From Candidatus Zixiibacteriota bacterium (GTDB lineage Bacteria; Zixibacteria; MSB-5A5; GN15; FEB-12): a DNA stretch of 64,000 nt. The position numbers were made by a program, and so were the translations under genes. The DNA lies in contig JACZWU010000003.1 of the NCBI GenBank assembly GCA_022571985.1, positions 1-64,000 on the forward strand. The letters are read 5' to 3'. The number at the start of each line of letters is the position of its first letter. The first letter of the stretch is position 1. Positions 55,383 to 58,682 of this stretch are shown here, piece after piece. The notes below the pieces were generated by a model. The model searched no databases, was not told the DNA's origin, and worked only from the letters and a program-made list of their open reading frames with translations.

Positions 55383-55410
55383 AGCCTGTAAAGATTTCAG
55401 TTGACAGGCT
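55383..55410 (+). promoter_or_regulatory. Inverted repeat overlapping the peptide-gene promoter
   Basis: AGCCTGT (55383) and ACAGGCT (55404) form a 7-bp inverted repeat with a 14-base gap; the right arm covers most of the -35 box. It is well placed for a repressor or attenuating hairpin. Confidence 0.5.
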
Positions 55411-55429
55411 GGTAGCTTCTTTATATAGT
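55401..55429 (+). promoter_or_regulatory. Near-consensus sigma-70 promoter for the peptide/activator operon
   Basis: TTGACA (55401-55406), a 17-base spacer and TATAGT (55424-55429) lie about 115 bases upstream of the exported-peptide ATG. Perfect -35, five of six in the -10. Confidence 0.75.
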
Positions 55430-55542: not shown

Positions 55543-55893
55543 ATGAAACGCTTAATCTCTGTATTGGCGATGGCGCTAATACTAACAATGATGTCATGGG
55601 GGACTGTAAATTCTGTCGGCGCCCCTGAAAAACTGATCGTAGTTAATTACGACCACCCTTGGGGTGGCGATCATCAAAGTGATGATTTCCCTTTCTCTAT
55701 TTCTGATCCGAAAGGTCCTGTCACGGATGTTCAGAAAACCGGCGGTTTCACGTCCTGGATAACCAACTGGTTCTTAAATAGTATCTACTATCTGAATATT
55801 TTACCGAAGAGCGACATCACTATAGACGTAACCGAAGACACTAACACTAAGAATGATGCAACCAACTCTAACTATATGGGGTCAGGCAAATGA
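55543..55893 (+). CDS. Small exported protein coupled to a sigma-54 activator
   Basis: 116 residues. A signal peptide (residues 1-24, ISVLAMALILTMMSWGTV) is followed by a short mature domain rich in Asp, Trp, Tyr and Asn with no cysteines and no recognised family. AAAGGAG precedes the ATG by six or seven bases. Its TGA overlaps the ATG of the activator (ATGA), so both are likely made together. The pairing suggests a signal or feedback peptide, but that is inference. Confidence 0.75.
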   Translation: MKRLISVLAMALILTMMSWGTVNSVGAPEKLIVVNYDHPWGGDHQSDDFPFSISDPKGPVTDVQKTGGFTSWITNWFLNSIYYLNILPKSDITIDVTEDTNTKNDATNSNYMGSGK

Positions 55894-58127
55894 ACCGAAG
55901 CGTAATACACGGCGATTCGTTCCCGGATGTTGCGTTGCATTATCTAACGTCGCTTATTAAGCGCCGGGAATATGCCAATGTAGTCAAATACTACGAAGAT
56001 AATCGTAGCGAATTTGATGCATTCGGCGGCACCAGAGCAGGTGAATCACTTCATCTGGTGTCACAGGCCTACGCTTCTGTAAATAACCACCCTTCAGCGC
56101 TCAGAACCGCTCGATTGGCTCAGCAAGAAGCCGTCACAGAGGGCGATTCGGTTTTACTCGCTGAGATATTCAGTACTATCGGATCGGCCCTGATTCGACT
56201 GGGTGAATACAAAGAAGCAGAAAAGGCCTTTCGTGATGCGGAGTCTCTTTTCCGCAGAAACGACCACCTCGAAGGACAATGCCGGGCTTTAAATCAGCTC
56301 GCCGGATTGTTTTTCAGACAAAACGATTATCAGAATTCACTGGCAATTTTAACAGATGCTTTGAATATCGCCCACCAACTGGGTGACACCAAAAAGACTG
56401 CCTATATGATGGGCAACCTTGGACGGTTGTATACTTTCTTAGGAGATTTTCCGGAAGCAACCAAGCACCTGCAGCTTAACATCGATGTCTCTACCGAACT
56501 GGATGACTGGCTTGAAGTAGGCAGAGCCTATTTGTCACTCGCCTATGTTCATATTCAAACCGGAGAGTATCAATCAGCTGAAGAAAACCTGCAAAAAGCA
56601 AAAGAGTTCTTGAGCAAACAGAAAAGTGAAAGAGATAATGTTATTTATCTCACTTATCTGGGAGAACTCTATCGTCACATGGGACGACTGACTGAGAGTG
56701 AATCAATTCTAAAAACAGCGCTCAAGCAAGCTGAAGCATTTGCACCCGGCACGACTTTGGCCGGACGCGCTATGCGCCATCTGGCAGAATTGTATGTCAT
56801 AGAGCAGAAGTTCCCGGCTGCCGGTAGAATGGCGGCCAGATCAATGACGATAATGCAAAGAGCCTCTGACAGAGTCGAATGTGGAGCTCTCTACAAACTC
56901 AAAGCAGTTATCGCCGATAACTGCCAGGACAAGGCGGCTTGTCAGAAATTCTTCAACCTTTCCATTGGCATGCTCTCTGATTCGGGAGTACGTTTTGAAA
57001 AGGCGGATACACTTGTAAGGGCAGGCGTAGCTGAAGCTTTCAGTAAGAAGAAACGTCTTATGTTTCTTTTCAGGGCTGAAGAATTCTACGCTCGCTATCG
57101 CATTGCACCGCAATTAGACAAAGTCGGTGCTTTGATTCAGGAATTGGGCGAAGTTCGGTCGGGCACGGCAGCCAGTAAACCAGCTCGGGAATCTGTCGAA
57201 TCCGAATTTCTTACCAATTCAAGTGATATCAAACGCTTTATGAGCCAGCTGGCTATCATCGGCAAAATGGATTTAACGATTTTGCTGACCGGTGAAACAG
57301 GCGTAGGCAAAGATCATCTGGCCCGTTACTATCATTCTCAAGTCAGGCCGGATGGACCGTTTGTAGCCATCAACTGTGCTTCAGTACCGGAGACGCTCCT
57401 GGAGTCGGAACTTTTTGGTTACAAAAAAGGCGCCTTTACCGGCGCGAATTCCGACAAGCTGGGCTTGTTTGCCTCGGCCAACGGCGGCGTTCTTTTCTTG
57501 GATGAAATTGGCGATATGCCGTTTGCCCTGCAGGCCAAACTTCTGGGCGTTCTGGAACACAGACGAGTTCTGCCTCTTGGCTCAACCAAAGAGGTTAAAC
57601 TTGACGTAGCTTTAGTGGCCGCAACCAACCATAACTTAGAAGAGATGGTCGAGCAGGGACTATTCCGGCGGGATCTTTACTATCGTCTGAGCGGCATGTC
57701 ATACCATATTCCTGCTCTGAGAGAGCGCAAAGAAGACATTCCTCTTCTTTTGAATCACTTTATTAACAGTTCGAGCTTAATTTTAGATTCGGGCAAAATC
57801 CCTGAAGAAATGCTACAGCAATTTCTTGAGTATGACTGGCCCGGAAATGTGCGGGAGCTTCAGAATAAAGTGAAGAAACTTGAAGTAATGACACAGCTGG
57901 CAGCCGAAGGTGACTTAGTTGAGCTGACCAGGTCTCTCCTGTCAACCGAAGACGAGATCAGAGACCATAGCTTAACAGAGAAAGTCGCTGAGTTTGAAAG
58001 GCAGCTTATTGTGGAAGCTCTGCTGGCAGCCAAAGGCAACAAGTCCAGAGCGGCCAGACTCCTGGGCATTCACGAGGCTACCGTGCGCACCAAACTGAAA
58101 CGTTACGGTATAAGCCTGGCTGGCTGA
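55890..58127 (+). CDS. TPR-containing sigma-54-dependent transcriptional activator
   Basis: 745 residues. The first about 400 are TPR repeats (SALIRLGEYKEAEKAF, QLAGLFFRQNDYQNSLAIL, NLGRLYTFLGDFPEAT). The AAA+ domain holds Walker A TGETGVGKDH near 467, the sigma-54 contact GAFTGA near 513, and Walker B VLFLDEIGD near 534. A Fis-type HTH ends it (KGNKSRAARLLGIHEATVR, about 708-730). There is no receiver domain; the TPR region is the likely sensor. It has no partner kinase. A near-consensus sigma-54 promoter lies 270 bases downstream. Confidence 0.92.
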   Translation: MNRSVIHGDSFPDVALHYLTSLIKRREYANVVKYYEDNRSEFDAFGGTRAGESLHLVSQAYASVNNHPSALRTARLAQQEAVTEGDSVLLAEIFSTIGSALIRLGEYKEAEKAFRDAESLFRRNDHLEGQCRALNQLAGLFFRQNDYQNSLAILTDALNIAHQLGDTKKTAYMMGNLGRLYTFLGDFPEATKHLQLNIDVSTELDDWLEVGRAYLSLAYVHIQTGEYQSAEENLQKAKEFLSKQKSERDNVIYLTYLGELYRHMGRLTESESILKTALKQAEAFAPGTTLAGRAMRHLAELYVIEQKFPAAGRMAARSMTIMQRASDRVECGALYKLKAVIADNCQDKAACQKFFNLSIGMLSDSGVRFEKADTLVRAGVAEAFSKKKRLMFLFRAEEFYARYRIAPQLDKVGALIQELGEVRSGTAASKPARESVESEFLTNSSDIKRFMSQLAIIGKMDLTILLTGETGVGKDHLARYYHSQVRPDGPFVAINCASVPETLLESELFGYKKGAFTGANSDKLGLFASANGGVLFLDEIGDMPFALQAKLLGVLEHRRVLPLGSTKEVKLDVALVAATNHNLEEMVEQGLFRRDLYYRLSGMSYHIPALRERKEDIPLLLNHFINSSSLILDSGKIPEEMLQQFLEYDWPGNVRELQNKVKKLEVMTQLAAEGDLVELTRSLLSTEDEIRDHSLTEKVAEFERQLIVEALLAAKGNKSRAARLLGIHEATVRTKLKRYGISLAG

Positions 58128-58169: not shown

Positions 58170-58232
58170 TTTGCTTTGAAAAAGCAGTCAGCCGGTGTTT
58201 GCGATTACGAATTCATGTTACATCCCTTTTTG

Positions 58233-58271
58233 GGCAGTAACTCTCTGAATATCAGAGAGTTACTGCCTTTT
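58233..58271 (+). terminator. Strong 16-bp hairpin terminator
   Basis: GGCAGTAACTCTCTGA and its complement form a perfect 16-bp stem with a 3-base loop, then TTTTATTATTAT. It should end the activator transcript and insulate the downstream sigma-54 unit. Confidence 0.75.
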
Positions 58272-58280
58272 ATTATTATC

Positions 58281-58301
58281 TGCTCGTAGATTTATACGAG
58301 C
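58281..58301 (+). repeat. 8-bp hairpin
   Basis: TGCTCGTA and TACGAGCA flank a five-base loop. It lies between the strong terminator and the sigma-54 promoter and has no T run. Role unknown; it could be part of a regulatory site. Confidence 0.5.
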
Positions 58302-58352: not shown

Positions 58353-58380
58353 TGAACAATAATAAGTTGTCATGTGTTCA
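58353..58380 (+). promoter_or_regulatory. Possible activator-binding inverted repeat upstream of the sigma-54 promoter
   Basis: TGAACA (58353) and TGTTCA (58375) form a 6-bp inverted repeat with a 16-base gap, 20-48 bases upstream of the -24 element. It is closer than most enhancer sites, so the assignment is tentative. Confidence 0.3.
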
Positions 58381-58400
58381 GGGAGTGCTGTAGCAGAAAG

Positions 58401-58414
58401 GGCACGGCTGTTGC
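58401..58414 (+). promoter_or_regulatory. Sigma-54 (-24/-12) promoter
   Basis: GGCACGGCTGTTGC matches the sigma-54 consensus GGCAC-N5-TTGC with the right GG/GC spacing; a T follows. It faces away from the activator gene and into a 110-base segment with no convincing ORF, ending in a terminator. This is the only such match I noticed. Confidence 0.75.
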
Positions 58415-58425
58415 TTAAGAGTGAC

Positions 58426-58530
58426 TTGTCATTTTTGCTCGAAGGGTACTGTCGAGGTACTCCGTTCTTCTTTTCTCTTTGGTGAAGAGGCTGCCCGCAC
58501 GTGAGGGGTGTGCGGGTGGTCTATTTTTTT
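58426..58530 (+). ncRNA. Candidate sigma-54-driven small RNA
   Basis: A transcript starting about 12 bases after the -12 element would run about 105 bases to the terminator at 58494-58530. It contains a first small hairpin (GGGTAC with GTACTC, 58444-58462) and a long CU-rich single-stranded stretch (CTTCTTTTCTCTTT, about 58465-58480), the kind of region that can pair with purine-rich Shine-Dalgarno sites. I saw no ORF with a ribosome site. The RNA is predicted, not shown. Confidence 0.6.
58494..58530 (+). terminator. Rho-independent terminator of the small RNA
   Basis: CCCGCAC (58494-58500) and GTGCGGG (58510-58516) form a 7-bp GC-rich stem, followed within a few bases by TCTATTTTTTT. It is a standard intrinsic terminator, 80-95 bases after the predicted start. 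Confidence 0.8.
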
Positions 58531-58682
58531 GCCCGGTCTCTATTTTAGACGAATCAAGCTGCGCTTATAATTAGTCATATTTTAACAATTCATAAACTTG
58601 TTGCTTTGCCCTGCTTTGAAGCGGATTTTTGACAATCCGCAATTTTTAGAATGTGAATGTTGACTCTGAAGGGAGCCGCCGC

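Follow-up and report, generated by a model that had tools for sequence, protein, structure and literature searches.

Regulatory RNAs joined to σ54 activators, to TPR regulators or to anti-σ factors

CrcZ titrates Hfq/Crc through CA motifs, LuxO is a σ54 activator that drives several Hfq-dependent Qrr RNAs, and SigW is usually freed through proteolysis of RsiW. In Pseudomonas, the crcZ sRNA gene lies next to the σ54 activator gene cbrB (PMC8871633), and in Vibrio the base-pairing Qrr RNAs act in the quorum-sensing path (PMC8043402). In addition, the arbitrium system of Bacillus phages (AimP-AimR-AimX) combines, within a single locus, a regulatory RNA, a TPR regulator and the gene for an exported peptide (PMC13389391), and the srbA sRNA of Pseudomonas aeruginosa has been proposed to affect the mucA anti-σ mRNA (PMC12203948).

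Analysis of a stretch of 64,000 nucleotides from a bacterium of the uncultured phylum Candidatus Zixiibacteriota (the window), together with its relatives, led us to propose, with a probability of roughly 0.8, that one locus in it is a dedicated bEBP-σ54-sRNA switch that represses translation of an anti-σ factor and so frees an ECF σ. With this anti-σ brake blocked by the sRNA, a stress-type gene programme is probably turned on. The RNA family, its promoter, the pair of upstream sites, the gene neighbours and the co-varying complementarity to the target can all be read in the genomes. In the predicted circuit, a σ70-type promoter would express a TPR-containing σ54 activator together with a small exported protein that carries an HPWGG motif; the activator would bind two palindromic sites at about −141 and −231 and drive σ54-dependent transcription of an sRNA of ~104 nt (binding and transcription both being inferred); and the 5′ end of this RNA, or its CU-rich stretch in one bacterial family (f4), would pair with the SD/start-codon region of a zf-HC2 anti-σ mRNA. 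Anti-σ translation would then fall, and the freed SigW-like ECF σ could amplify itself via a putative promoter of its own, TTRAACA-N15-CGTC.

The closest precedent for the layout is CrcZ/CrcY-CbrB, in which the sRNA gene is also a separate unit directly downstream of a σ54 activator gene (PMC8871633). The Zixiibacteriota sRNA differs from CrcZ in that it pairs with one mRNA and that no Hfq was found, and its activator is a one-protein TPR type, unlike the two-component regulator CbrB. LuxO-Qrr is closest in logic, with a σ54 activator driving a base-pairing RNA, whereas the Zixiibacteriota sRNA has another sequence, is single-copy and has an anti-σ target. Like arbitrium, the locus holds a small exported protein, a TPR regulator and a regulatory RNA, but AimR is no σ54 activator, and the HPWGG protein is longer, has a central motif and has no proven role. 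The target operon, an ECF σ closest to SigW plus a zf-HC2 anti-σ factor, recalls SigW/RsiW, except that anti-σ synthesis is predicted to be reduced by an RNA in the present case. The srbA proposal shares the idea of an sRNA acting on an anti-σ mRNA; it concerns a different RNA, and in the accessible portion of that source we found no report of an adjacent σ54 activator module or of co-variation evidence.

Comparison with CrcZ, LuxO-Qrr, arbitrium and srbA revealed no published system with the same full combination, as far as the sources consulted show. The first-pass annotation had called the pairing of an activator with an sRNA an undescribed module; this holds for the sRNA itself, which has no Rfam match and no Zixibacteria paper that we could find, but the placement of an sRNA beside its activator has the cbrB-crcZ precedent (PMC8871633). 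The predicted wiring, in which σ54 turns on an ECF σ via an RNA that removes the anti-σ factor, can be tested at every step in a laboratory host. Because the RNA and its target have drifted by compensatory changes, and the pairing site has moved within the RNA in one family, the system also serves well as a natural example of an sRNA and its target co-evolving in the absence of Hfq.

A conserved small RNA gene behind a σ54 promoter

The sRNA gene occupies 58427-58530 on the plus strand. The box, the lack of a convincing ORF and the intrinsic terminator described by the first-pass annotation were all borne out: a σ54 −24/−12 promoter, GGCAC-N5-TTGC, reads GGCACGGCTGTTGC at 58401-58414 (plus strand) and is conserved in relatives, no plus-strand ORF across the sRNA is conserved among them, and a terminator hairpin with its T run spans 58488-58530 (plus strand), with the stem at 58488-58522, an invariant GAGGGG loop at 58503-58508 and a T7 run that ends at 58530. 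Also on the plus strand are a 5′ pairing stretch (58427-58441), which is antisense to the SD-AUG region of the anti-σ mRNA in trans, hairpin 1 (58444-58462), and a CU-rich stretch (58465-58484) that pairs with the same target in f4. The small hairpin previously noted in the transcript is well defined across most members of the RNA family; the window copy has a weak version of it (z −0.58), and it is stable in most sequences of family f1 and absent in f2. Since a GGCAC-N5-TTGC match is expected 0.55 times per 64 kb by chance, the window sequence alone is little proof, and the locus stands above chance because the box, the distance to the start, the terminator and the loop are conserved across dozens of genera.

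A covariance model, which the window copy matches at 92.6 bits as the single copy of its genome, found exactly one copy per genome in 60 of 132 Zixiibacteriota genomes, and the genomes with the sRNA form four families (f1-f4) of one order. The model overlooked six more f4 copies, located ~115 nt past the activator site, and assembly gaps account for some absences (contig L180 stops on the promoter); judged by their record titles, the analysed genomes are apparently metagenome-assembled. When 58380-58540 was compared with 60 relatives by blastn, copies within the genus were nearly identical, and many of the family's other genera gave strong matches. The aligned copies share one order of elements: GGCAY-N5-TTGC, ~12 nt, (T/C)GTCATTTTT, a hairpin, a CU-rich tract, and a GC-rich hairpin with the invariant GAGGGG loop. 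The spacing from the GG of the promoter to the conserved (T/C)GTCA is constant at 26 nt, which satisfies the criterion of a conserved σ54 element (GG-N10-GC) with fixed spacing to the start. Loss of the −24/−12 element or of the stem in relatives would have counted against the original proposal; both are kept, and six terminator-stem pairs have changed on both sides. The criterion for a trans-acting sRNA, a short conserved non-coding unit with a terminator and no conserved ORF, is also satisfied; the transcript itself has not been seen, and its production is inferred.

At the gathering score, Rfam has no match for the sRNA (the sole Rfam match in the window is a tRNA), and no published Zixibacteria sRNA was found in the literature. 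In the absence of such a paper, it appears that no regulatory RNA combining conservation with a co-varying target had previously been described for this candidate phylum. Two readings were rejected by eye: a CsrA-type role for the GAGGGG loop, since GGA is missing from the window copy (GAGGGGUG), and pairing within the RNA between the loop and either the 5′ end or the CU tract, which are only partly complementary to it across families. Pattern-scan matches in Bacteroidetes records (L037 and L041, from a scan of one genome per species) were judged to be chance.

In many f1 loci (L036, L120, L122 and others), the genes 3′ of the sRNA appear by eye to be BMC shell-type, PduA/EutM-like, EutN-like or RnfC-like, unlike the sodium:solute symporter gene at this place in the window. 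The T run after the hairpin is poor in several relatives, where read-through into the frequently following BMC genes is possible. The earlier description of a stand-alone unit stands, in that the conserved part ends at the terminator whatever gene comes next, and simple read-through into the symporter gene is not supported.

Complementarity to an anti-σ mRNA

The antisense of the sRNA 5′ end, GGAGTAAAAATGAC, resembles a ribosome site, and in f1 it recurs at one conserved place beyond the sRNA, the start of a zf-HC2 anti-σ gene (no genome-wide target ranking was made). This gene lies directly behind an ECF σ gene, and the order Sigma70_r2/r4_2 then zf-HC2 satisfies the criterion for a σ/anti-σ operon. 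In the genome of the window, the ECF σ gene, SigW-like by NCBIfam, is at G000:C4:81225-81785 on the minus strand, with the anti-σ start codon behind it at ~81197 on the same strand. NCBIfam places the ECF σ closest to SigW and the anti-σ factor as RsrA/RsiW-like, both below equivalog cut-offs. The orthologous locus, found via the σ protein, is present in 76 of 129 genomes, with no clear ECF orthologue in f3 at the cut-off used. In the genus of the window (L274, G000:C4), the anti-σ factor is soluble and 85 aa long, lacking the membrane segment found in most relatives.

Upstream of the ECF operon (L285-L314) are a σ70-like promoter and a conserved TTRAACA-N15-CGTC element, which looks like the ECF σ's own promoter, typical of ECF autoregulation. 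A search for an ECF regulon with this pattern gave matches no commoner than a reversed control, apart from the ECF operon itself, and the ECF output of the circuit is inferred without protein data. A divergent MFS transporter gene accompanies the operon in the same loci.

When each genome's anti-σ start region was compared with its own sRNA, at least 13 of 15 pairs were formed at 34 of 42 anti-σ starts versus 6 of 315 other gene starts. Cognate duplexes averaged −27.2 kcal/mol compared with −23.4 kcal/mol for permuted ones, and none of 10,000 permutations was as good, a result also obtained with f1 alone (0/10,000); within f2 or f4 alone, each with five genomes and few, similar sequences, the test was not significant. 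This test was uncorrected for relatedness, which alone should not create complementarity. Compensatory changes in the sRNA/anti-σ duplex include T-A to C-G (G006 and G017), T-A to G-C (G014, with 18/18 pairs), T-A to A-T (G015), A-T to G-C (G078 and G021) and changes at two positions in G009, while all 22 positions are paired in the f2 genome G052, including one added base pair. The sRNA thus satisfies the requirement, for a trans-acting base-pairing sRNA, of complementarity to a trans-encoded target that is conserved and co-varies. Pairing is weaker in the genus of the window itself (13/15 pairs, one of them G-U; 44th of 47 by energy), and it is poor in five f4 genomes and in G003, G036 and G042.

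In f4 the sRNA 5′ end has lost its fit, and the CU stretch (CCAUCUUCUUUUCUCAU) makes 14-16 pairs with the orthologous start in six genomes, so that the pairing site has moved but the target has not changed. The first-pass annotation had foreseen that the CU-rich stretch pairs with SD sequences; pairing with an SD is supported, but in the lineage of the window it falls to the 5′ end (58427-58441), and the CU stretch takes this role only in f4. Likewise, the target search that it advised for the CU stretch led to the anti-σ start in f4 but to no second conserved site in f1. Neighbouring genes (activator, HPWGG protein, BMC) were rejected as targets, their duplex energies being no better than those of other gene starts. 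The f4 sRNAs (L104, L105, L353) keep GGTCATTTTT (or GGTCGTTTCT) near their start despite its misfit to the anti-σ start, which suggests another target. Hfq (PF17209) was found in none of 40 genomes, with control genomes positive, so the criterion for an Hfq-dependent sRNA failed, and Hfq-independence is inferred.

It is necessary to consider whether the conserved stretch is instead a 5′ leader, or attenuator, of the downstream operon. Many f1 genomes do have co-directional BMC shell genes 150-240 nt further on, and a T run is missing after some of the hairpins there; yet the next gene varies among genomes or is on the opposite strand, the conserved unit always stops at the hairpin, the window has its T7 run, and a leader leaves the co-variation with an unlinked anti-σ start unexplained, all of which makes this reading very unlikely. 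A short gene on the opposite strand can be virtually dismissed as the source of conservation: read on the minus strand, the 5′ end gives GGAG-N5-ATGAC, an apparently perfect ribosome site, but the ORF stops after five codons in the window and is short or unrelated in relatives, there is no conserved minus-strand frame, and the σ54 box that such a gene must cross is itself conserved.

The direction of the effect is less directly constrained, as pairing alone shows no sign of effect and only one conserved target was found, so the sRNA might activate or stabilise the anti-σ mRNA, or this mRNA might be a sponge for the sRNA. However, the duplex covers both SD and AUG, from which repression is inferred, and an sRNA duplex over these elements normally blocks the ribosome; a sponge would imply that the sRNA acts mainly on some other target, and the search with the f1 CU stretch gave no such target. 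We therefore regard activation or a sponge as improbable, and retain translational repression of the anti-σ factor as the preferred reading.

The activator, its predicted palindromic sites and a small exported protein

The first-pass annotation placed a TPR-type activator upstream, and Pfam, conservation and an AlphaFold2 model of the TPR part agree that the gene at 55890-58127 (plus strand) encodes a σ54 activator with a TPR superhelix (mean pLDDT 93), an AAA+ domain with GAFTGA (Sigma54_activat) and a Fis-type HTH. The strong hairpin that it noted before the sRNA promoter is also present, at 58232-58268 (plus strand), and is read as the intrinsic terminator of the activator operon. Of the 50 loci in families f1-f3 whose upstream DNA could be read, 49 (all but L096) have the activator gene next to the sRNA, on the same strand and ending 210-480 bp before it, which is the co-occurrence of sRNA and TPR-NtrC genes that the first-pass annotation had advised looking for.

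A palindrome, TTCGTA-N6-TACGAA, is found upstream of the promoter in 50 of 56 regions, compared with at most 8 in shuffles, and nearly all loci contain a pair of them 86-93 bp apart. In the window, predicted site 1 (58283-58300, CTCGTAGATTTATACGAG, no strand assigned) is the only perfect match in the genome (control, 0), and predicted site 2 (58194-58211, no strand assigned), 89 bp from site 1, is degenerate, matching at 8 of 12 positions; in most relatives the perfect palindrome occurs once or twice per genome. In f4 the activator gene lies at a separate, unlinked locus, yet the palindromes remain upstream of the sRNA, which is good evidence that the activator binds them, although binding itself is inferred in the absence of binding data. 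Together with the GAFTGA loop read in the protein, these upstream sites satisfy the criterion of activator sites plus a bEBP that marks a σ54-dependent gene. The adjacency, the site pair, the single RNA per genome and the unit ending at its terminator uphold the idea of a dedicated activator with a dedicated sRNA. The genome of the window encodes a second TPR-NtrC activator (980 aa; G000:C1:628892-632296, L221), just after a small exported protein without HPWGG; no σ54 box with a small RNA was seen alongside.

The activator gene overlaps the end of a gene for a small exported protein of 116 aa with an HPWGG motif (55543-55893, plus strand), preceded by a σ70-type promoter for both genes, TTGACA-17-TATAGT (55401-55429, plus strand), that rests on a consensus match only. 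Wherever there was enough sequence to judge (32 of 32 loci), an HPWGG-type gene precedes the activator, as it does at all nine unlinked f4 activator loci. These proteins are ~110-135 aa long, longer than usual RRNPP pro-peptides, begin with what by eye is a signal-peptide-like start, and have no Pfam or NCBIfam match. Their H-(P/T)-W-G-G motif is near-invariant with acidic flanks (H, W, G and G are invariant in alignment A3), and the remaining protein is barely conserved; the DNA encoding D-H-P-W-G-G-D in the window (55651-55670, plus strand) is the only match of the motif pattern in its genome.

The best structural matches of the activator TPR include Rap, NprR and AimR (Z 22-31), with LGN and MalT tying. 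Its relatives by sequence or fold comprise the peptide-binding TPRs of LGN, Rap, NprR, AimR and kinesin light chain, and also MalT, so a peptide ligand is plausible but not shown. It is possible, though we hold this only tentatively and consider it less likely than not, that the HPWGG protein provides a peptide or export-status signal bound by the activator TPR, making the locus a cell-signalling or secretion-sensing system with a five-step switch. If so, the path from peptide to TPR-bEBP, single-target sRNA, anti-σ factor and ECF regulon would join RRNPP-like sensing with σ54, RNA and ECF control. In one relative (L183, G032:C182), a small exported protein carries two such motifs, DDHPWGGD and DDHSWGGD, and has no adjoining activator.
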